Source: an uncultured Bacteroidales bacterium (GTDB lineage: Bacteria; Bacteroidota; Bacteroidia; Bacteroidales; P3). Taken from it: a DNA stretch of 64,000 nucleotides. This document shows, in pieces, positions 4,823-38,298 of this stretch. Under the pieces are notes generated by a model that was given only the letters and a program-made list of their open reading frames with translations, did no database searches and had not been told where the DNA came from. The stretch covers positions 96,814-160,813 of the forward strand of contig CAMJJD010000001.1 of assembly GCA_946406015.1 (NCBI GenBank), in the 5' to 3' direction. The number at the start of each line of letters is the position of its first letter. Position 1 is the stretch's first letter. A program made the position numbers and the translations under genes.

Positions 4823-5845
4823 CTATTTGGTGATCGTCAGCATCGCGTCGCGCACCTCATTATCAGATATATCTACATCTATTATGGCGGCACCGGGCTC
4901 TTGCAGCAGCACGCAGCGTAGCACTCTGGCAGCGCTCTTCTTGTCCTGGTGCATCAGCGGCAGCATTGCTTCGATATCCTTCAGCGTATAGTGCGGTACG
5001 GCAATATTTGATGCAAGCCAATGGGAATAAGCGTTGTATACCTCTTCTGCAAGCCCCACCTTCTTGGTCGAGAGGTACATGGCGGCCTTCATGCCGATGC
5101 CGACGGCGATGCCATGGGGCAGTTTGCTGTAGACCTCGATGGCGTGGCCGAAGGTGTGGCCGAAATTGAGTATCTTCCTGATACCATGGTCGTAAGGGTC
5201 GGCATTCACCACGCGGGCTTTGATGCGGGCCACCTCCTTAATAGTTGAAAGTTGAAAGTTGAAAGTTGAAAGCAATTGATGGAATAGCGTTGGGTCGGTG
5301 ACGGCGGCGGTCTTCACCATCTCCATCTCTCCGCTGAGTATCTCCTCCTGCGGCAGGGTCTCCAGGAAGGCCGTTTCTATGACCGTCAGGGCGGCAGGGT
5401 AGAAGTGGCCTATGCTGTTTTTCACGCCACCGAAATCGACGGCCGTCTTGCCACCGATGGCCGCGTCGACCATGCCCAGTAAGGTGGTAGGTATGTTGAT
5501 ATGGCGGATGCCGCGCTTGTAGCCTGCGGCCACAAAACCACCTAAGTCACAGATACTTCCACCGCCTAGGTTCACCAGCGCTGCATTGCGGTCGGCCTCG
5601 CCCTCCAGCAACGTCTGCCACACTTGTTCCGCCACCTCCAGACTTTTGCACTCTTCGCCTACAGGCACCTCGATGAATTCCGCCTCCTGTAGCGCCTCCA
5701 CACTGCCTATCAGCAGTGGAAGACAGTGCTGGAAGGTGTTCTCGTCCACCAGAATGGTGTAGCGTGCATCCTGCCATTGCGAAGATGCCAGTTCTCGGTT
5801 CAACGCCCGCAGGCCTCCATAAAGTATCTTGCTTTGTCTCAACAT
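4823..5845 (-). CDS. aroB: 3-dehydroquinate synthase
   Basis: VNLGGGSICDLGGFVAAGYKRGIRHINIPTTLLGMVDAAIGGKTAVDFGGVKNSIG; GHTFGHAIE. Confidence 0.94.
   Translation of the reverse strand: MLRQSKILYGGLRALNRELASSQWQDARYTILVDENTFQHCLPLLIGSVEALQEAEFIEVPVGEECKSLEVAEQVWQTLLEGEADRNAALVNLGGGSICDLGGFVAAGYKRGIRHINIPTTLLGMVDAAIGGKTAVDFGGVKNSIGHFYPAALTVIETAFLETLPQEEILSGEMEMVKTAAVTDPTLFHQLLSTFNFQLSTIKEVARIKARVVNADPYDHGIRKILNFGHTFGHAIEVYSKLPHGIAVGIGMKAAMYLSTKKVGLAEEVYNAYSHWLASNIAVPHYTLKDIEAMLPLMHQDKKSAARVLRCVLLQEPGAAIIDVDISDNEVRDAMLTITK
5244..5272. repeat. 7-bp tandem array (GTTGAAA x4) inside aroB
   Basis: gttgaaagttgaaagttgaaagttgaaag; read in aroB as STFNFQLST. Confidence 0.95.
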
Positions 5846-5879: not shown

Positions 5880-7973
5880 ATGAAACTGGAACTGCTGTCA
5901 CCGGCGAAGAACCTCGAGTTCGGACGCGAGGCCGTCAACCACGGCGCCGACGCGCTCTATATCGGCGCGCCGGCCTTCGGTGCCCGCGCCGCCGCCACCA
6001 ACACGCTCGAAGATATCGACGCCCTCGTGCGTTACGCCCACCTCTACGGCGCCAAGGTCTTCGCCACCGTCAACACCCTCCTCTTCGACAATGAGTTGGA
6101 ACCCGCCGTGGCCATGATTCGCCAGCTCTACAACGCCGGTGTCGACGCCCTCATCCTTCAGGACCTCGGCCTGCTCGAGTGCGACCTGCCACCCATCGAA
6201 CTCCATGCCAGCACGCAGTGCCACAACGCCTCGGTGGAGCGCATAAAGTTCATGGAATCAGTAGGGTTCAGGCGCGTCATCCTAGCCCGCGAAACCTCCC
6301 TGGAGCAGATGAGTGCCATCCGCGAGGCCACCACGGTCGACCTCGAGGCCTTCGTCCACGGCGCCCTCTGCGTGAGCTACAGCGGTCAGTGCTACATGAG
6401 CCAATATCTCAACGAACGCAGCGGCAACCGTGGCCGCTGCTCGCAGCCCTGCCGCAGCAGCTACGACCTCCTCGCCGCCGACGGACGCCTGCTGATAAAA
6501 GACCGCCACCTGCTGTCGCTGCGCGACTTCAACGCCTCGCAGCGCCTGGCCGACATGATAGCCGCCGGCATCACCTCCTTCAAGATCGAGGGACGCCTGA
6601 AAGACCTCAGCTACGTCAAGAACAACACCGCCTACTACCGGCAGCTGCTCGACAGCATGATGGAGGGCCATTCGCCTGCCTCCAGCGGCCATTGCACCTA
6701 CACCTTCACGCCCGACCCCGACCGCACCTTCAATCGCGGCTACACCGACTATTTCCTCCGCACGCGCCAGCCCATGGCCAACTTCGCCACCCAGAAGTCG
6801 CTCGGCAAGAGGGTAGGGGAGGTCACCGCTGTGGGGCGCCGCACCCTCACCGTCGGCGGCAACGAAGCTTTCGCCAACGGCGACGGACTTTGCTACCTTG
6901 ACTCCGACGGCCGCCTGCAGGGGTTCCTCGTCAACCACGTGGAGGGACGCACCCTCACCCCCAACCAGATGCCCGACCTCCAGGTGGGCACCACCCTCTG
7001 GCGCAACCAAGACCAGCAGTTCGAGAAAACGCTGCAAGGCCGCACCGCCGACCGCAAGATAGCCGTCAAACTCTCCTTCTCTCTTGTTTCTGGCGGCTTC
7101 TCATTGAAGATAGAAGACGAGAACGACATCTGCAGCCAAGCCGATATCATGATGGACTATACCCCCTCGTCCGACCCCGTGCGATTCACCGACACCATCG
7201 TCAAACAGCTTTCCAAACTGGGTGACACGCCCTTCGTGGCCACTGAGGTGCGTGACTGCACCGATGGTGTATACTTCTTGCCGGCCTCCATCCTCAACCA
7301 GCTGCGCCGTGATGCTGTGGCAGCGCTCATGGAGAACCGCATCGCGCACTTCCAGCCAATCGACTGTCCGCGGGAGGACCGCCACGAGGCCTACCCGCAG
7401 GCTGCCCTTGACTATCGCGCCAATGTCGTTAACGCCAAGGCCGAAGCCTTCTATCGCCACCATGGTGTGCAGCAGCTGGAACGCGGCCTCGAGCAGACAT
7501 GCGACTACGAGGGGAAGGCACTGATGACCACTAAATATTGCCTTCGCTACGAACTCGGCTGCTGCCTGCACCCCGAAAAGTGGAAAAAGGAAAGTGATAA
7601 GTTGAAAGCGGAAAGTGGAAAGTGGAATGAGGAAAGAGAAAAGTGGAAGGCGGAAAGTGGAAAGTGGAATGAGGAAAGCGGAAAGTGGAAAGCGGAAAGT
7701 GGAAAGTGGAATGAGGAAAGCGGAAAGTGGAAAGTCGAAAGTGGAAAACGTAACGGGGAAAGAGAAAGGTTGAGGGTGGAAAGTGAGAAGTGGAAAGTGA
7801 GAAGTGGCGGGCAGAAAGATGGTGCGGAGGCAGAGCTCCGTTACGCTGGATTTTCGGCGGAGCAACCCCTCAAGATCAACCCTGGCGACACTCTTCTGCT
7901 CCGGAATCAGGACCACGAATTCCGTCTCGAGTTCGACTGCCGTCAGTGCCTCATGCGCATCTACAAAAAGTAG
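5880..7973 (+). CDS. Peptidase U32 family protein
   Basis: [75 protein letters not shown]-terminal [10 protein letters not shown]. Confidence 0.93.
7577..7808. repeat. Degenerate 7-bp tandem array (GTGGAAA-type) inside the U32 peptidase gene
   Basis: Units gtggaaa/gtggaat/gaggaaa/gcggaaa; encodes [23 protein letters not shown]... Confidence 0.93.
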
Positions 7974-24416: not shown

Positions 24417-24440
24417 TTGGCGTCGTTTGAAGGGATAAAA

Positions 24441-24499
24441 GTTATCGGTTATCGGTATAGGGCTGACGATTCGACAGCCTTTAACCGATAACCGACAAC
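24441..24499. repeat. Gene-less inverted 7-mer arrays (GTTATCG)
   Basis: gttatcggttatcggta ... aaccgataaccgacaac, inverted. Confidence 0.85.
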
Positions 24500-24521
24500 T
24501 GGTTAATTGTGTGGTGCTGCG

Positions 24522-24914
24522 TTAGTTGTTCTTACGCTGGCACTGTTTGGGTGTGACGCAGGTACCGGTGGCGCGGCACACGAGGATTTTCTCCTCGAGC
24601 ACGTCGGCGGCCGAGTCGCTGATGTCGGGACGGGTCTTGATGACCTTGTAGGCCTCGAAACTCATCTTGCGGCTGGTGTTGCCGACATGGGTGATTTCGC
24701 CGTAGGCTTCGATATAGTCGCCGGCGTAGACGGGGGCCTTGAACTCGACCATGTCGTAGGCGCAGAAGAGGCCTTCGTCGCCGTCCTGGATGATGAGAAG
24801 CTCGGTGGCGACATCGCCAAAGAGATGAAGCATGTGGGCGCCGTCGACGAGGTTTCCGCCATAGTGGGCGTCCTTGGCGCTCATGCGGACGCGGAGCATA
24901 GATTTAACTGCCAT
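24522..24914 (-). CDS. kal: 3-aminobutyryl-CoA ammonia-lyase-like hotdog protein
   Basis: [72 protein letters not shown]...[15 protein letters not shown]. Confidence 0.8.
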
Positions 24915-24925
24915 TTTCTTATAAA

Positions 24926-24961
24926 GTTTAAAAGGTTTAAAAGTTCAAAAGGTTTAAAAGG
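24926..24961. repeat. Repeat arm of IVP element 1 (3' side of the IVP gene)
   Basis: gtttaaaaggtttaaaagttcaaaaggtttaaaagg; 28/36 inverted match to 25357-25392. Confidence 0.85.
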
Positions 24962-24972
24962 AAATGGTAGGT

Positions 24973-25341
24973 TTAAAGGTTCTCTTTCTGTTGTTTTAAG
25001 GTTTCTAAATATTTGATATGACTATTTATTGCTGATGATATAATTTTGCATTGCGAAATCATATCCTGAGACATCTCTTCTGAACAATATCTCAGTTCCT
25101 TACATAAATAAACCATACTTCGTACTTCGGCACAACTTCCCTTAGCTGTATGGAGATATTTTATGAAAAGTTGGGTGGAACCTGACTCGCTTCCCTCCGC
25201 AATATTATTCATAATTGATACCGCTGCACGCTGAATTTGGTCTTTAAAGCCAAAATCACTGCTATCCTGCATCAACTCATACACCCTTACCGTCAACTTT
25301 TTTGCCAACGACCATGATGTAAGTTCCTCAAAATAAGCCAT
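24973..25341 (-). CDS. Four-helix-bundle protein, 23S rRNA intervening-sequence protein (IVP) family
   Basis: FKDQIQRAAVSIMNNIAEGSESGSTQLFIKYLHTAKGSCAEVRSMVYLCKEL matches the IVP family pattern. Confidence 0.9.
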   Translation of the reverse strand: MAYFEELTSWSLAKKLTVRVYELMQDSSDFGFKDQIQRAAVSIMNNIAEGSESGSTQLFIKYLHTAKGSCAEVRSMVYLCKELRYCSEEMSQDMISQCKIISSAINSHIKYLETLKQQKENL

Positions 25342-25356
25342 ACAGGAAGCCCGTTA

Positions 25357-25392
25357 CCTTTTTAACCTTTAAACCCTTTTAACCTCTTTAAC
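25357..25392. repeat. Repeat arm of IVP element 1 (5' side of the IVP gene)
   Basis: cctttttaacctttaaacccttttaacctctttaac, overlapping the stop codon of the CoA-transferase gene. Confidence 0.85.
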
Positions 25393-26035
25393 CCTTAATG
25401 ACGTAGTCGACAAAGATGCCGGGGGTCTTGACGTTCTCGGGAGCGATGCTGCCGGTGGCGACAATCTCCTGCGGCTCGACGATGACGGTGTCGGCGGCGG
25501 TGGCCATCATGGGGCTGAAGTTCTGCGAGGTGCCCTTGTATACCAAGTTGCCGCTCTCGTCGGCGATGTTGGCTCCGATGATGGCGACGTCAGCGCGGAC
25601 GGGTTTCTCAAGGAGATATTCCTTGCCGTCGACGGTGACCTTCTGCTTGCCGTTTTCGACCACGGTGCCAAGACCTGTCTGGGTCAGCACGCCACCGAGA
25701 CCTGCACCCGCGGCGCGGATCTGCTCGGCCAGGGTGCCTTGGGGCTGCAGGGTGACCTTCAGCTCGCCGGCATTCATCTGGTCGATGGTGTTGTTATTGG
25801 TGCCGATATGGGTGGCGATGAGGGCCTTCACCTGATGGTTGGTGATGAGTTTGCCGACGCCGACTTCGGGATAGGCGGTGTCATTGCAGATGATGGTGAG
25901 ATCCTTCACGTTGCGAGCTACGAGCTCGTCGATGAGTGCAATGGGGTTGCCCACGCCGAGGAATCCGCCCACCATGACGGTCATGCCGTCGTGAATCATG
26001 TCGGCGGCCTCTTTTACGGTGACAAATTTCTTCAT
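25388..26035 (-). CDS. atoD: CoA-transferase subunit A (acetoacetate/butyrate type)
   Basis: DGMTVMVGGFLGVGNPIALIDELV, THIGTNNNTIDQMNAGEL, PVRADVAIIGANIADESGNLVYKGTSQNF. Confidence 0.87.
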   Translation of the reverse strand: MKKFVTVKEAADMIHDGMTVMVGGFLGVGNPIALIDELVARNVKDLTIICNDTAYPEVGVGKLITNHQVKALIATHIGTNNNTIDQMNAGELKVTLQPQGTLAEQIRAAGAGLGGVLTQTGLGTVVENGKQKVTVDGKEYLLEKPVRADVAIIGANIADESGNLVYKGTSQNFSPMMATAADTVIVEPQEIVATGSIAPENVKTPGIFVDYVIKG

Positions 26036-26140
26036 AATAGTATACTATTTTATTGTTTGTTGCGTTATTGTTTCAGCGTGCAAAGATACTATATTTTTTG
26101 CATATTGAAAAAAAAATTTGCCCAGATGCCGAAATATGAG

Positions 26141-26148
26141 TAATTTTG
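26141..26148 (+). promoter_or_regulatory. Bacteroidota-type -7 box (TAATTTTG)
   Basis: TAnnTTTG 26 bp upstream of ATG 26174. Confidence 0.5.
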
Positions 26149-26173
26149 CACTTGAAAATTAAGACGTAAAAGG

Positions 26174-26806
26174 ATGAAAAAGACGTTGATTTTTGCCGTA
26201 ATAGTGATGCTTTTCGCCCCCTTGGCGGGTGCGCAGGAATATATTGAGCCGGTTGAAAAGTGGAAGGTGGCCGAGGTGTGGGGCATCAATTACCACGGTT
26301 GGTCGTTCCATCAAGACTGGGAAGTGGACTTCACTGTCGAGAACCAGGACGGCCGTTTCACTCCCACCGACGCCGAAATCGCCGAAGCCGAGCGACTCAT
26401 ACAGAAACGCATATCATACGTCAACCGCGACCATTACAACCAAGGCGGCATGTGCCCCGTCATCGACGAGCACATGCGCATGTACCGCCGTCAGTATGTG
26501 GGCTTCACCAACGACCGCGGTGACCACGTCATCTGGGTCAACTTCCTGTGGGACGATGAATTGACCGATGAGCGACTGGCCAGCGACGTGCTGCTCACCA
26601 CCGGTGGCTGTGGCCACTTCTGGCATCTGAAATGCAACCTCAACACCAAGAAGGTCTATGGCCTCGAGGTGAATGGCGACGGCGACATCCGCTACCTGCC
26701 GCGCGTGGCCAAACCGCAGCCTCGCATCAGCAAGCCTAAGGGCAACAAGAAACAGAAAGTCCGTAAGACCGGTATCATCCACTCTCCTGAAGAGAAAGTA
26801 TTCTAG
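26174..26806 (+). CDS. Hypothetical secreted protein
   Basis: MKKTLIFAVIVMLFAPLAGAQ signal peptide; no recognised domain. Confidence 0.75.
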   Translation: MKKTLIFAVIVMLFAPLAGAQEYIEPVEKWKVAEVWGINYHGWSFHQDWEVDFTVENQDGRFTPTDAEIAEAERLIQKRISYVNRDHYNQGGMCPVIDEHMRMYRRQYVGFTNDRGDHVIWVNFLWDDELTDERLASDVLLTTGGCGHFWHLKCNLNTKKVYGLEVNGDGDIRYLPRVAKPQPRISKPKGNKKQKVRKTGIIHSPEEKVF

Positions 26807-26836
26807 TTCGGAATTCGGAACTCGGAGTTCGGAGTT
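26807..26836. repeat. Left arm of IVP element 2 (7-mer TTCGGAA/TTCGGAG)
   Basis: ttcggaattcggaactcggagttcggagtt directly between upstream TAG and IVP ATG. Confidence 0.95.
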
Positions 26837-27196
26837 ATGGATAGAAGCGTTCTTCAACAAAAAAGCTACAACTTTGCTATTAGGGTTGTACGATTATATT
26901 CACATCTGCGCGATAATAAACACGAATATACCTTATCGAAACAATTACTCCGCTCAGGAACCAGCGTTGGCGCCAATCTACGAGAAGCCAAACGAGGACA
27001 ATCCAGAGCAGATTTTGCTGCAAAATTGACCATAGCACTCAAAGAGGCTGAAGAGTCTCTCTACTGGATTGAGTTGCTTAAAGAAGCAGGGTTGTTAACC
27101 AGCGATGAATTCGATAGTATATACCATGACTGCGAAGAACTAGTTAAAATGCTCGTGTCGGCGACAAAGAAACTATATGGGCCAGATACAAAATAA
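26837..27196 (+). CDS. Four-helix-bundle protein, 23S rRNA intervening-sequence protein (IVP) family, second subfamily
   Basis: LSKQLLRSGTSVGANLREAKRGQSRADFAAKLTIALKEAEESLYWIELLKEAGLL. Confidence 0.92.
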   Translation: MDRSVLQQKSYNFAIRVVRLYSHLRDNKHEYTLSKQLLRSGTSVGANLREAKRGQSRADFAAKLTIALKEAEESLYWIELLKEAGLLTSDEFDSIYHDCEELVKMLVSATKKLYGPDTK

Positions 27197-27620
27197 ACTC
27201 CGAACTCCGAACTCCGAATTCCGAACTCTACTATTAAAGTTCTTAAAATTTGGCGTGGTAGGCGCTTCGGGGATGGTGGTGCATGGAGGCGTGCTCTACC
27301 TGCTGAAAGAGGTGGCAGGTCTCAACCCTTTTGTGGCCAACACCATCGGCTTCGTCACCGCAGCCACCACCAACTACATCCTCAACCGTATCTGGACCTT
27401 CCGCAGCCATGAGAAGCAGGTGGGCGTGGAGTACCTCAAGTTCATCCTCGTCAGTGTCGTCGGACTCGGCATCAACAATGCCACCCTCTGGCTTGGCGGA
27501 CGTCTGCTGCCCGCTTGGAACGACGACTGGCGCTTCTACATTCTCTGGGTCTTTGCCGTCGGTGTCACCACACTCTGGAACTTCTTCGGCAATATGTTGT
27601 TTACATTTAAACAGAAATAA
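27177..27620 (+). CDS. GtrA family protein
   Basis: FLKFGVVGASGMVVHGGVLYLLKEV...ATTNYILNRIWTF...GNMLFTFKQK; N-terminus lies inside the repeat arm. Confidence 0.85.
   Translation: MGQIQNKLRTPNSEFRTLLLKFLKFGVVGASGMVVHGGVLYLLKEVAGLNPFVANTIGFVTAATTNYILNRIWTFRSHEKQVGVEYLKFILVSVVGLGINNATLWLGGRLLPAWNDDWRFYILWVFAVGVTTLWNFFGNMLFTFKQK
27196..27228. repeat. Right arm of IVP element 2 (7-mer ACTCCGA)
   Basis: aactccgaactccgaactccgaattccgaactc; 28/30 inverted match to 26807-26836. Confidence 0.95.
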
Positions 27621-30606: not shown

Positions 30607-32679
30607 TCAACCCACCGAGCAGCCGGGGGTGACAAGGTCGCTGGGGGTGAGGAGGACGAGACGGCCGTCCTTGTCCTCGGCGCTGAGGATCATGCCCTGG
30701 CTCTCGACACCCTTGAGTTTGCGGGGCGGGAAGTTGGCGATGAAGCAGACCTGACGGCCTACCAACGCCTGCGGGTCGGGGTAGAACTTGGCGATGCCGC
30801 TGACGATGGTGCGGGTGCCCATGCCGTCCTCAATCTTGAACTGCAGCAGTTTGTCGGCCTTGGGGACCTTCTGGCACTCGAGGATGGTGCCCACACGGAT
30901 GTCCATCTTGCCGAAGTCGTCGATGGTGACCGGCGCCTTCACCTCGGCGGGCTTCCAGGCGTTGAGTTCGTTCTGCGCCTTGGTGGCCTGCAGCTTGTCG
31001 ACCTGGGCCTGGATGGTCTCGTCGCTGATCTGCTCGAAGAGCAGCTCAGGCGTGCCGATGGTGTGGCCTTCCATCAGGAGGTCGGCGCGGCCGGCGTCTT
31101 TCCAACCGAGGGCCTGCAGGTTCATGATGCGGTGCATCTTGTCGGCCGTGAAGGGCAGGAAGGGGGCGCAGAGGATGGCCAGGTTGGCGCAAATCTGCAA
31201 CGAGAGGTTCATCACCGTGGCGGTGCGCTCGGGGTCGCTCTTGACGAGCTTCCAGGGCTCGGTGTCGGTGAGGTATTTGTTACCCAGACGGGCCAGGTTC
31301 ATCATCTCGGCGAGGGCCTCGCGGAAGCGGTAGGTCTCAATTGAGCGGCCTATGCGCTCGGGGAAGGTGGCCATCTCTTTGATGACTTCGTCATCGAGTT
31401 CGGAGTTCGGAGTTCGGAGTTTGGAGATGGCGGGCACGCGCCCGCCGTAGAACTTGTGCGTCAGCACCAGCGTACGGTTGACGAAGTTGCCGAGGATGGC
31501 TACCAGCTCGCTGTTGTTCTTCAGCTGGAAGTCCTTCCAGGTGAAGTCGTTGTCCTTGGTCTCCGGGGCGTTGCTGCAGAGGGTGTAGCGCAGCACGTCC
31601 TGCTTGCCGGGGAACTCCTGCAGGTATTCGTGCAGCCAGACGGCCCAGTTGCGCGAGGTCGAAATCTTGTCGCCCTCGAGGTTGAGGAACTCGTTGGCCG
31701 GCACGTTGGCGGGCAGGATGTAGCTGCCGTCGGCGTGGAGCATCGAGGGGAAGATGATGCAGTGGAAGACGATATTGTCCTTGCCGATGAAGTGCACCAG
31801 CTTGGTGTCCTGGTCTTTCCACCACTTCTCCCAGTCGTCGCCTTTCAGCTGCTTGGTGAAGCTGATGTAGCCGATGGGGGCGTCGAACCAGACGTAGAGC
31901 ACCTTGCCGTCGGCACCCTCCAAGGGTACCTTGACGCCCCAGTCGAGGTCGCGCGTGACGGCGCGGGGCTGCAAGCCGGCGTCGATCCACGACTTGCACT
32001 GGCCGTAGACGTTGGTCTTCCAGTCGCCTTTGTGGCCTTCGAGAATCCACTCGCGCAGCCAAGGCTCGTCCTGGTCGAGGGGGAGGAACCAATGCTTGGT
32101 CTCTTTCAGCACGGGTTTCGAGCCGCTGAGGGCGCTCTTGGGGTTAATCAAATCGGTGGCGTTGAGCGAGGTGCCGCAGGCTTCACACTGGTCGCCGTAG
32201 GCGCGCTCGTTGCCGCAGTGGGGGCAGGTGCCGGTGATGTAGCGGTCGGCCAGGAAGCAGCCGGCCTCCTCGTCGTAGTACTGCATCGACACCTTCTCGA
32301 CGAACTTGCCCTCGTCGTACAGCTTCTTGAAGTAGGCCGCTGCGGTCTCGTGATGCTCCTTGCTGGAGGTGCGGCTGTAGATGTCGAACGAGATGCCCAG
32401 CTCGGCGAAGGAGTCCTTGATGATCTTGTGGTAGCGGTCGACGATGTCCTGCGGCGTGCAGCCCTCCTTGCGGGCCTTGATGGTGATGGGCACGCCGTGC
32501 TCGTCGCTTCCGCCGATGAACATCACCTCCTCGCCTTGGGCGCGCAGGTAGCGCACGTAGACGTCGGCAGGCACATAGACACCCGCCAGGTGGCCGATGT
32601 GCACGGGGCCGTTGGCGTAGGGCAGCGCCGAGGTGACGGTGTAGCGCTTGTATTTATGGTCTTTTTCTGTGTAGGTCAT
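30607..32679 (-). CDS. metG: Methionine--tRNA ligase with C-terminal tRNA-binding domain
   Basis: [46 protein letters not shown] (KISTS variant), C-term [28 protein letters not shown]. Confidence 0.96.
31398..31426. repeat. 7-bp array (GTTCGGA x4) inside metG
   Basis: gttcggagttcggagttcggagtttggag; read as [10 protein letters not shown]. Confidence 0.93.
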
Positions 32680-34322: not shown

Positions 34323-34397
34323 TCTCTCCGCTTTCTCCGCTCATCTTCTCCCTGCTTTCTCCGTACCTTCTCCCTACCTTCTCCGTACTTCTCCCTG
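34323..34397. repeat. Degenerate array, about 9-10-bp period (CTTCTCCGTA type)
   Basis: ttctccgctttctccgctcatcttctccctgctttctccgtaccttctccctaccttctccgtacttctccct. Confidence 0.75.
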
Positions 34398-34451
34398 CCC
34401 CGCACGGAGGATGTACCTTGCCGCCGTTGTTTTGCTCGCGCGCTGGTAGCG

Positions 34452-34493
34452 CTTTGAGTCCTTAGGTCTTTGAGTCCTTGGGTCCTTGAGTCT
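34452..34493. repeat. Degenerate 9-bp array (TTTGAGTCC/TTGGGTCCT type)
   Basis: tttgagtccttaggtctttgagtccttgggtccttgagtct. Confidence 0.75.
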
Positions 34494-34498
34494 CGATG

Positions 34499-34622
34499 GC
34501 TCTTCGACTTTTCGACTTTTCGACTCTTCGACTTTTTGACTTTTCGACTTTTTGACTTTTCGACTTTTTGACTTTTTGACTTTTCGGCTCTTCGACTTTT
34601 TGACTTTTTGACTCTTCGACTC
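34499..34622. repeat. 8-bp array (CGACTTTT/TGACTTTT)
   Basis: About 15 units of [ct]gactttt-type over 124 bp. Confidence 0.9.
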
Positions 34623-35511: not shown

Positions 35512-36363
35512 TTATGACGGCTGTTGGCCGAGGTGGTATTGGCGCAGCCCTTCGATGGGGTCGGCCATCACAGTGCCGATGGCGAGTTTGTCGGAGGACA
35601 TGAAGCTGCGCAGGGTAGGCTCGATGGCCTTGGCGAATCCTCCGACCAGGTTGAGTTGTCCCTCGGATATACCGCTCTGTTCCTGCAACGTGGCCAGCAT
35701 TCCATGACGCCAGTCGTAGAGTGCTTCCGTAATCACGCTGCGGCAGTAGTCAGCCTCCTGCCGATGCACGGCGAAGGGAGCCAGCGATGCCAGGAAGCGG
35801 TTGGGGTTGGATTGGTGATATACGGCGTCGATAAGCTGGTCGTCGGTCATGGGGTAATTGTCATGGAACATGCATCTTACCTCCTCTGGCATGCGATGGG
35901 TGAGGTAGTCGTTGAGCAGTATGCGACCCACATGGTTGGCCGACCCTTGGTCGCCGAGGATAAAGCCTGTGCTGACAGGTTGGCAAGCGATGCGGAGGCC
36001 ATCGTAACAGCAGGCGTTGCTGCCGGTACCCAGGATGGCTACCAACGAGGGACGGCCGCCGCTCACCGCTCGGCAGGCACCCAGCATGTCGGTCTCGACA
36101 TGCACCTCGGCGGCACAGAATCCCGCCGACAGGAGTCGCTCCACCCGCTCCCTCTGCGAGGCATTGCCGCAGCCGGCACCATAGAAGTAAATTGAGAATT
36201 GAGAATTGAGAATTGAGAATTGCTGGCGCACGGCGGAGCAGGCGGCGAGGAACCGCTCGTCGGAGGTGAAATGGGGGTTGAGACCTTCGGTAACCACCTT
36301 GTTACCAGACTCCACTTCCATCCACGTGGTCTTGGTGCTCCCGCTGTCGGCTATGATTGTCAT
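35512..36363 (-). CDS. N-acetylglucosamine kinase-like / BadF-type ATPase
   Basis: IIADSGSTKTTWMEVESG, ILGTGSNACCYDG, STGFILGDQGSANHVGR. Confidence 0.85.
   Translation of the reverse strand: MTIIADSGSTKTTWMEVESGNKVVTEGLNPHFTSDERFLAACSAVRQQFSILNSQFSIYFYGAGCGNASQRERVERLLSAGFCAAEVHVETDMLGACRAVSGGRPSLVAILGTGSNACCYDGLRIACQPVSTGFILGDQGSANHVGRILLNDYLTHRMPEEVRCMFHDNYPMTDDQLIDAVYHQSNPNRFLASLAPFAVHRQEADYCRSVITEALYDWRHGMLATLQEQSGISEGQLNLVGGFAKAIEPTLRSFMSSDKLAIGTVMADPIEGLRQYHLGQQPS
36191..36222. repeat. 7-bp array (ATTGAGA x4) inside the N-acetylglucosamine kinase-like gene
   Basis: attgagaattgagaattgagaattgagaattg; read as QFSILNSQFSI. Confidence 0.95.
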
Positions 36364-37371: not shown

Positions 37372-37383
37372 ATGCTTAATCTT

Positions 37384-37518
37384 TATGTAGTTATGTAGTA
37401 AAGTAGTTATCGCTTCGCTCGCCCTGCGGGCAGTAGTTAAGACAAATGTTTATGTTGCCTCTTTGCTGCCAACGACAGTATTGCCCTATCTACTTAACTA
37501 CTGTCTACTTAACTACTT
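37384..37518. repeat. Inverted 8-mer arrays (AAGTAGTT) between pyrK and pyrD, gene-less
   Basis: tatgtagttatgtagtaaagtagttat ... tacttaactactgtctacttaactactta. Confidence 0.85.
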
Positions 37519-38298
37519 ATTCTCATACCATTTCTTCATGCTTGTGATGTCGAACACAGGTCCGTCCTTGCAGACGCAGCGGTGTCCTTGGTCGGTGTCG
37601 GTGACGCAGCAGAGGCAGGCGCCGACGCCACATGCCATCATATTCTCGAGCGATACCTCGCAGCGGATGCCGCGTTCAGCCGCCGAGCGGGCCACGGCCT
37701 TCATCATGGGTGTGGGGCCGCAGGTGTAGATGATGTCGTACTGCTCAGCGAAGGCGGGGTTCTCAATTACCAACCCTTTGTGTCCCAGACTTCCGTCGTC
37801 GGTAGAGAGGCACACGGTGCCGTAGGGGCGGAACTCGTCGCGCACGGGGATGAGTTCGGCGGTGCGGCCGCCCAGCAGGATGGTGCAGTCGACACCCTTT
37901 GCTTTCAGCACCTTGGAGAGGTAGAAGAGGGGGGCGATGCCTGCGCCGCCACCCACCAGAAGGGCGCGGCTGGATACCGGCAGGTCGACCGAGAAACCAT
38001 GACCCAGAGGGTAGACGATATTCACGCGGTCGCCTTCGGTGAGTTGGCTCAGCCGGCGCGTGCCCTTGCCCACCACCTGGACGAGCAACGAGAGGGTGCC
38101 GGCGTCGGGGTCGACATCGTGTACCGAGATGGGGCGGCGCAACATCACACCGGGTTCGCCGTCGACCCTCACCTCGACAAATTGTCCTGGAGCCACCGGC
38201 GGCATCGGGCTGAGGTGGCTGTGGCGCAGCACAAGGGTGAAGTAGTGTTCGCCGTGCCGATGCAACGCTAAGAAGCTGAAATCGTGTATTTCTTTCAT
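37513..38298 (-). CDS. pyrK: Dihydroorotate dehydrogenase electron transfer subunit
   Basis: PGQFVEVRVDGEPGVMLRRPISV, LLVGGGAGIAPL, MMACGVGACLCCVTD. Confidence 0.94.
   Translation of the reverse strand: MKEIHDFSFLALHRHGEHYFTLVLRHSHLSPMPPVAPGQFVEVRVDGEPGVMLRRPISVHDVDPDAGTLSLLVQVVGKGTRRLSQLTEGDRVNIVYPLGHGFSVDLPVSSRALLVGGGAGIAPLFYLSKVLKAKGVDCTILLGGRTAELIPVRDEFRPYGTVCLSTDDGSLGHKGLVIENPAFAEQYDIIYTCGPTPMMKAVARSAAERGIRCEVSLENMMACGVGACLCCVTDTDQGHRCVCKDGPVFDITSMKKWYENK

Follow-up and report, generated by a model that had tools for sequence, protein, structure and literature searches.

What are two genes of the S23/IVP family doing between protein-coding genes of a Bacteroidales genome, each enclosed by inverted arrays of a short tandem repeat? 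Both lie in a 64,000-nucleotide stretch of an uncultured Bacteroidales bacterium (assembly GCA_946406015.1, contig CAMJJD010000001.1, positions 96,814 to 160,813), which is referred to here as the window and in which all coordinates are given. To our knowledge, no function has been assigned to the S23/IVP family since its discovery in rRNA intervening sequences (IVSs). The analysis described here indicates that the two genes almost certainly belong to a widespread class of elements that is mobile over evolutionary time, has clade-specific arms, and carries S23/IVP as its sole gene. Overall, we favor the reading that the protein is probably a pentamer that binds the arms of its own element, the whole being a single-gene mobile element of ~0.45 kb. 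In the literature searched, which did not include most subscription papers, IVP genes enclosed by inverted arrays are not described outside rRNA; the class is apparently undescribed, and it may also account for the 7-base repeats that have long been observed, with no cause assigned, throughout many bacterial genomes.

Structure of the Two Elements

Both open reading frames (ORFs) are members of the IVP (S23) family in profile searches (curated cut-off, 33.8) and match PF05635-type models only. Element 1 is located on the minus strand. Its four-helix-bundle gene (24973–25341, 122 amino acids; PF05635, 103 bits; TIGR02436, 99 bits) is preceded by a left (5′) arm (25356–25396) of ~4.3 copies of an 8–9 nt unit of the AGGTTTAAA type, which starts at the stop codon of the upstream gene (Tandem Repeats Finder, TRF; junctions). 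The right (3′) arm (~24923–24982; TRF, inverted repeat) is the left arm inverted and ends just ahead of the next start codon. Element 2 is located on the plus strand, where its gene (26837–27196, 119 amino acids; PF05635, 99 bits; TIGR02436, 114 bits) lies between a left arm of ~4.6 copies of AGTTCGG (26805–26836) and a right arm of ~4.7 copies of AACTCCG (27196–27228; TRF, inverted repeat, and comparison with empty alleles). The arms of element 2 are 32 nt long and 94% complementary, and those of element 1 are looser, with a 12-nt perfect core within the arrays. The inverted-repeat scores are 27 for element 2 and 20 for element 1, compared with ~8 for dinucleotide shuffles. The original prediction, made from the letters of the window, of two IVP-family genes on opposite strands with inverted short-tandem arms is thus confirmed. 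The arm units (GGTTTAAAA in element 1 and AACTCCG in element 2) are indeed unrelated, the two proteins are only 18% identical, and simple duplication does not explain the arms.

The AlphaFold2 (AF2) model of the element 2 protein (predicted local distance difference test score, pLDDT, 94.9) matches the four-helix bundles 2RLD (E 5.8e-9) and 2GSC. It also matches the fold of Avd, a protein of diversity-generating retroelements (DGRs) (4DWL, template modeling score, TM, 0.73; DGR complex 8UB7).

A detail missed by the original prediction is that each IVP gene is co-directional with both its upstream and its downstream neighbor and is placed between their stop and start codons. The neighbors are ordinary metabolic or membrane genes. 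Element 1 is part of an operon ato–IVP–kal, all on the minus strand, with the gene for CoA-transferase subunit A upstream (25388–26035; PF01144 and NCBIfam CoA-transferase models) and that for 3-aminobutyryl-CoA ammonia lyase (kal) downstream (24522–24914; NF052388 equivalog). Upstream of element 2, on the plus strand, is the gene for a 210-amino-acid protein without a family match in profile searches (26174–26806), the stop codon of which is inside the left arm and which adjoins gtrA in 21 element-free congeners. Downstream is a GtrA-family gene (27177–27620, plus strand; PF04138, empty alleles). The right arm extends into codons 2–5 of the ancestral gtrA, which has lost its own start codon, and its open frame now starts inside the IVP coding sequence and continues across the arm. 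No rRNA match is present within the window and both elements are flanked by protein-coding genes, so neither has the 23S location of an IVS.

Enrichment of Inverted Arms at IVP Genes

To score arms, the 130 nt upstream of each gene were locally aligned with the reverse-complemented downstream flank, with a pass at ≥13; this threshold was picked after the data were seen, and the scores are nevertheless well separated. Among 135 distinct IVP genes from ~60 species of the window's genus and some of the order, 114 have arms, compared with 8 of 306 other genes drawn from the window and from fetched stretches (Fisher p ~1e-72). None of the 42 other window genes has flanks that score ≥13, and several of the eight passing control genes adjoin IVP elements or represent an armed four-helix gene of greater length (L013). 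The window's genome contains 14 PF05635 matches, and nearly all of its IVP genes are armed, the unit differing by place (e.g., AGTGTTA, GAATTAA, GAATTTT, CTATAGGAA). The proposal of an element class is upheld by this enrichment, together with the occupied and empty sites described below; neither of the two outcomes that the original prediction had named as refuting it, a lack of enrichment and arms fixed in all strains with no empty alleles, was observed.

Metagenome-assembled genomes may contain mis-assembled AT-rich arrays of low complexity, and the architecture could then be a product of chance, assembly or composition. The probability of such an artefact is practically nil, as the architecture recurs in many independent genomes and phyla and on complete plasmids, and the controls refute it (8/306 for other genes; 0/18 for an armless paralogue). 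This paralogue, of ~150 amino acids, occurs about once per genome, and none of its 18 copies in 18 genomes has arms (scores 6–8.5). The conserved PF05635 paralogue (L010, L039, L424–L439) is possibly a domesticated member of the family.

The longer gene L013, in the window's genome, encodes a 212-amino-acid four-helix protein and has CTATAGGAA arms; the adjoining rimO coding sequence holds a solo array of CTATAGGAA. In addition, inverted repeats surround 21 of 29 GxxExxY (PF13366) genes of the window's genus, and the tandem units there are ~10–12 nt long (L306–L335). These nuclease-fold genes may be the basis of a parallel class of elements.

Distribution Among Phyla, Plasmids and Xanthomonadaceae

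A scan of all bacterial species covered one IVP subfamily by means of a close alignment, the broad alignment being too diverse. An arm score of ≥13 was reached by 59 of the 77 loci of this subfamily that could be scored, and these are found in Bacteroidota, Bacillota, Acidobacteriota, Planctomycetota, Verrucomicrobiota, Pseudomonadota, candidate phyla, and others. On plasmids, nine copies were examined (Nostoc, Dolichospermum, Planktothrix, Gloeocapsa, Euhalothece, Bernardetia), and all have arms; several of these arms are perfect, e.g., (GTAATTC)n across 39 nt, and perfect arms occur on Nostoc plasmids. The class is therefore much broader than was originally claimed. An IVP gene on a phage (L423, MT835815.1) has no arms.

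In Xanthomonadaceae, 127 of 299 genomes contain an IVP gene, mostly as a single copy, and heptamer arms are present at 28 of the 30 genes checked, the right arm often lying within the ORF tail. The arm units are GGGACCG, GGGACTC, and GGGAATC. The last of these has been reported at 186 places in Xanthomonas campestris, mostly as four units and often in inverted pairs, on the sense strand after stops and on the antisense strand before starts, and was published as unexplained (PMC4692102). Two Xanthomonadaceae copies sit between apparent accB and accC genes, as judged from the translations of these genes. The heptamer TAACTGA, known from Beggiatoaceae, was found in 1 of 369 sampled gammaproteobacterial genomes, where it forms the right-hand arm of an inverted pair that encloses no gene, and no IVP gene is present in the examined stretch; the link of the class to Beggiatoaceae is thus one that we infer.

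Insertion Sites and Mobility

The 114 armed elements represent 62 insertion sites, and at all 58 callable sites every neighbor is co-directional with the IVP gene. Counted per gene, co-directionality on both sides applies to 97 of 97 IVP genes with both neighbors called, compared with 21 of 40 window genes. The left arm follows the upstream stop codon by a median of 1 nt, and the downstream start codon follows the right arm by a median of 2 nt. One group of elements lies between a coding gene, the C terminus of which looks like that of initiation factor IF-2, and a tRNA gene, and is co-directional too.

Empty alleles, which had been put forward as a mark of such elements, are present in congeners at both sites of the window. 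At site 1, the intergenic region of element-free congeners is 4–17 nt (195 nt in one of them), compared with 449–489 nt in occupied species. Site 2 is occupied in the window's genome only and is empty in 21 congeners, where the region is mostly 15–25 nt. Nine more elements of the window's genome have empty alleles, some with relic arrays. Proteins up to 90% identical are found at different sites, and in the clearer cross-site pairs DNA similarity is confined to the region from arm to arm (e.g., −33 to +44 around the ORF). Because this similarity begins and stops at the arms, the mobile unit consists of arm, gene, and arm. Copy number within the genus ranges from 0 to 17 per genome. The elements thus have what distinguishes a mobile element, i.e., both occupied and empty alleles and the same element at unrelated sites. 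There is no mobility enzyme gene inside the element, and target-site duplications are not resolvable next to variable arrays.

The sense orientation at 58 of 58 sites would be explained if an Avd-like IVP ring acted with a reverse transcriptase supplied in trans, so that movement proceeded via the transcript; the match to the Avd fold (4DWL and 8UB7, see above) is consistent with such a helper role. This route is unlikely, as no reverse transcriptase is found among the neighbors examined, no search in trans having been made, and a template/variable repeat pair is not seen.

At site 2, the gtrA start 'GAACTCCGAACTC' is the arm unit. That arm units are seeded by target flanks is a striking possibility at this site and at L009, but the signal over ten sites is weak (p=0.02), and the idea is not claimed; losses that leave scars would give the same picture. 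One IVP subgroup (L009 1350–1480, L189, L192, L084) has a conserved leader hairpin (..AAGTTTTAAGTGGCTGACGCCCCACTTATAGC..) within the left arm. At the acrB site of congener G076, this leader hairpin (..AAGTTTTAAGTGGCTGACGCCCCACTTATAGC..) and the right arm are present and the IVP gene is absent.

Repeat Period, Copy Number and Arm Symmetry

The repeat period follows the protein. When period classes (7, 8, and 9–12 nt) are placed on a tree with one protein per site (59 sites), 8 changes are required, compared with a mean of 18.5 after shuffling (0 of 200 shuffles as low). One five-site clade has a period of 8 throughout with widely different units (GAGTCTAT, GACTGCGA, AAGATTAA, GTTGATAT, GTTGATAC), which indicates that spacing, rather than unit sequence, is tied to the protein. 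A core, A-[AG]-T-[GT], is common to the 7-nt units: it reaches 2.16 nats, and permutation of positions gives 1.66 ± 0.08. Each arm contains 4.2–4.9 copies at periods of 7, 8, 10, and 11 nt, while arm length rises from 33 to 50 nt, and the commonest count of in-register cores per arm is five. The solved relatives 2RLD and 2GSC have five chains each, and 2GSC is described as a toroidal homopentamer (PMC4990558). Given ~5 copies per arm, a period set by protein clade, and pentameric relatives, each subunit probably contacts one repeat. The earlier suggestion of a link between protein and repeats therefore stands as regards dependence on the repeats (period by clade; a pentamer and ~5 copies); binding of the ring to the repeats is a step that we infer strongly and consider fairly probable.

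The two arms of an element change in concert. At 18 sites with orthologous elements in different species, the left arm is closer to its own right arm (0.71) than to the left arm of the orthologue (0.52), and concerted change is seen at 14 of the 18 sites (p=8e-4). For example, of two elements at one site with 69% protein identity, one (L124) has AATTGAG in both arms and the other (L188) has AAAGTAAAAACTA in both.

Arms that are alike and inverted can also pair in RNA: in minimum-energy folds a median of 79% of left-arm bases are paired with the right arm, with a duplex energy of −27 kcal/mol. The elements could thus be RNA elements resembling rRNA IVSs, in which the arms form a stem of the operon transcript and RNase III removes the loop, leaving the neighbors translatable and the protein secondary. 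RNase III does excise rRNA intervening sequences with this gene family (PMC4990558), and strict placement in sense, between a stop and a start codon, fits the same scheme. However, selection for a stem would leave an excess of G-U pairs, and arm mismatches have no such bias (63 wobble vs. 87 non-wobble), so that arm symmetry looks DNA-level and the wobble test gives no support for selection on an RNA stem. Moreover, such selection needs no tandem repeats, fixed copy number or clade-set period, and solo arrays are unable to form stems. The RNA scheme is therefore rather improbable, though it deserves some weight, and the emphasis of the original prediction on a hairpin excised by RNase III is not borne out. 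Nor is there evidence of direction for its idea that the elements moved outside rRNA; the rRNA IVS may equally be one special location of the class.

Solo Arrays and Gene-Less Pairs

Copies of the flanking repeats are also dispersed away from IVP genes, as in REP/RAYT systems. In the window, solo arrays lie in frame within loops of three conserved coding sequences, all on the plus strand: GGAGTTC in metG (31396–31426), AGTTGAA in aroB (5243–5272), and AATTGAG in a BadF-type kinase gene (36190–36222) (TRF). The metG array has the unit of element 2 and is located 4.2 kb from it, and the loop is shorter and variable in congeners. In metG of congener G076 (L298), the variable loop encodes a different heptamer peptide (RVESGEWKVESEL), which indicates that the loop was hit independently. 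Gene-less inverted pairs have the same inward polarity as the elements (4 vs. 0). One such pair, of short GTTATCGGTTATCGGT / ACCGATAACCGACAACT arrays, lies between convergent genes (24440–24500; 30-nt arms, 83% complementary). Another (37383–37540; GTAGTTA.. / ..TCTACTTAACTACTGTCTACTTAACTACT; TRF arrays and sequence) is a remnant that resembles the 8-nt-period elements L001 and L123.

Among 59 congeners, the number of core-type arrays correlates with the number of IVP genes (rho 0.53, p=1.5e-5), and correlations with Y1 transposase and GxxExxY gene numbers are 0.01 and 0.39, respectively. As a partner in trans, the Y1 transposase was rejected on this ground (rho 0.01).

Heptamers are over-represented in many genomes and are ascribed to polymerase slippage in work known through its citation in PMC4679880 and PMC4692102, and the majority of arrays in array-rich genomes do not adjoin an IVP gene. 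Slippage might accordingly make heptamer arrays between cistrons, with IVP genes as passive cargo that is moved in by another enzyme or tolerated. This account is improbable: insertion into a direct array would give direct rather than inverted flanks, inverted arms of the same unit are nearly specific to IVP genes, the period follows the protein clade, and the armless paralogue has no arrays at its flanks (0/18).

Proposed Mechanism

The favored reading, a pentamer that binds the arms of its own element, can be put as follows. The IVP protein would form a pentameric ring, as its solved relatives do, with one repeat bound per subunit, so that each end of the element, with its arm of about five repeats, would offer a binding site for one ring, comparable to terminal inverted repeats or iterons. 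Turnover would proceed by slippage and copying from arm to arm, keeping the arms alike while the unit drifts, because one ring must read both ends. The ring may bring the ends together, with movement depending on an enzyme supplied in trans. Because no promoter is evident within the element, the only insertions to persist would be those that lie in sense between cistrons. Gene-less pairs and solo arrays, including those in frame in coding loops, may be derivatives mobilized or seeded in trans, and such derivatives would make up the dispersed heptamer repeats of these genomes. Chances appear evenly balanced for the wider proposal that this is an element class of its own without a mobility enzyme, the ends of which are read by counting, that it is the source of the heptamers in cyanobacteria, Xanthomonas, Beggiatoaceae, and Bacteroidota, and that the rRNA IVS is one special landing place.

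Several observations weigh against the favored reading. The IVP protein has no catalytic domain and no partner enzyme was found. Paralogues in the same genome are divergent, so movement is rare or occurs by horizontal transfer. No clear arms are present at 21 of the 135 IVP genes, some of which are mis-called starts or truncated genes. An RNA route, too, would produce strict sense orientation. The correlation between array and IVP numbers ignores phylogeny, and a small share of the arrays counted are the arms themselves. IVP number correlates equally well with a reversed control pattern (0.55); as this pattern also matches arrays and is not a clean negative control, the correlation speaks for heptamer arrays as such and not for the core motif in particular. 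GxxExxY gene number correlates with arrays as well (0.39).

The finding joins the function of S23/IVP and the origin of heptamers by a testable rule, namely a pentamer, one repeat per subunit, and a clade-set period. The origin of bacterial tandem heptamer repeats has been left open ('no mechanism is evident'; PMC4679880). In practice, the flanks of any IVP gene predict its own putative binding site, and solo arrays can be read as probable footprints of element activity, including in-frame insertions in conserved enzymes.

Comparison With Known Systems

The 23S rRNA IVSs of Coxiella, Leptospira, and others have the same PF05635 family, an ORF closed by complementary ends, and a comparable length, which is 428 nt in Coxiella; there, the S23 ORF is even preceded by variable tandem copies of the heptamer GACAGAT (PMC4990558). 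The common protein family, size, and closed ends, together with these heptamers, place the class with the IVS kind. Unlike IVSs, IVP elements occur within operons of protein-coding genes, occupy many sites in many copies, and have tandem-array arms on both sides, an element-specific unit, and gene-less and solo derivatives. They lie outside rRNA, and they appear to function more in the manner of REP/RAYT systems, in which a gene goes together with a repeat. In REP/REPIN–RAYT (Y1 transposase) systems, too, the gene is framed by an inverted repeat of which copies lacking the gene are scattered over the genome, and there is often one gene per genome, as for IVP in Xanthomonadaceae. However, IVP proteins lack a transposase domain, their repeats are tandem arrays rather than single palindromes, and array number does not follow Y1 number.

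Heptameric simple sequence repeats (SSRs), such as cyanobacterial short tandemly repeated repetitive (STRR) sequences, GGGAATC of Xanthomonas, and TAACTGA of Beggiatoaceae, resemble the arms in unit length, in having about four copies, and in forming inverted pairs, and are likewise found in sense just after stops and in antisense just before starts (PMC4692102, PMC4679880). GGGAATC itself frames an IVP gene in Xanthomonadaceae. Neither an associated gene nor a mechanism of spread is reported in the heptamer papers (PMC4692102, PMC4679880). Avd of DGRs has the same four-helix fold (TM 0.73), but the retroelement context is missing at the IVP loci examined.

Other Repeat Arrays

A very long solo array in the window (7577–7807) consists of 33 imperfect AAAGTGG copies within a 697-codon ORF, with the frame kept. 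Dense mixed arrays (CTTCTCCCTAC, TTTGAGTCC, TTCGACTT) without an IVP gene occupy the region between two minus-strand genes at 34323–34622. In the fabZ/fabG region of genome G012 (L092), two genes are flanked by long inverted copies of ACTCCCCTCTCCAATCGGAGAGGGGC..GGGGGTGAGGC, a different dispersed repeat, which adjoins the apparent C terminus of a DUF559-type gene.

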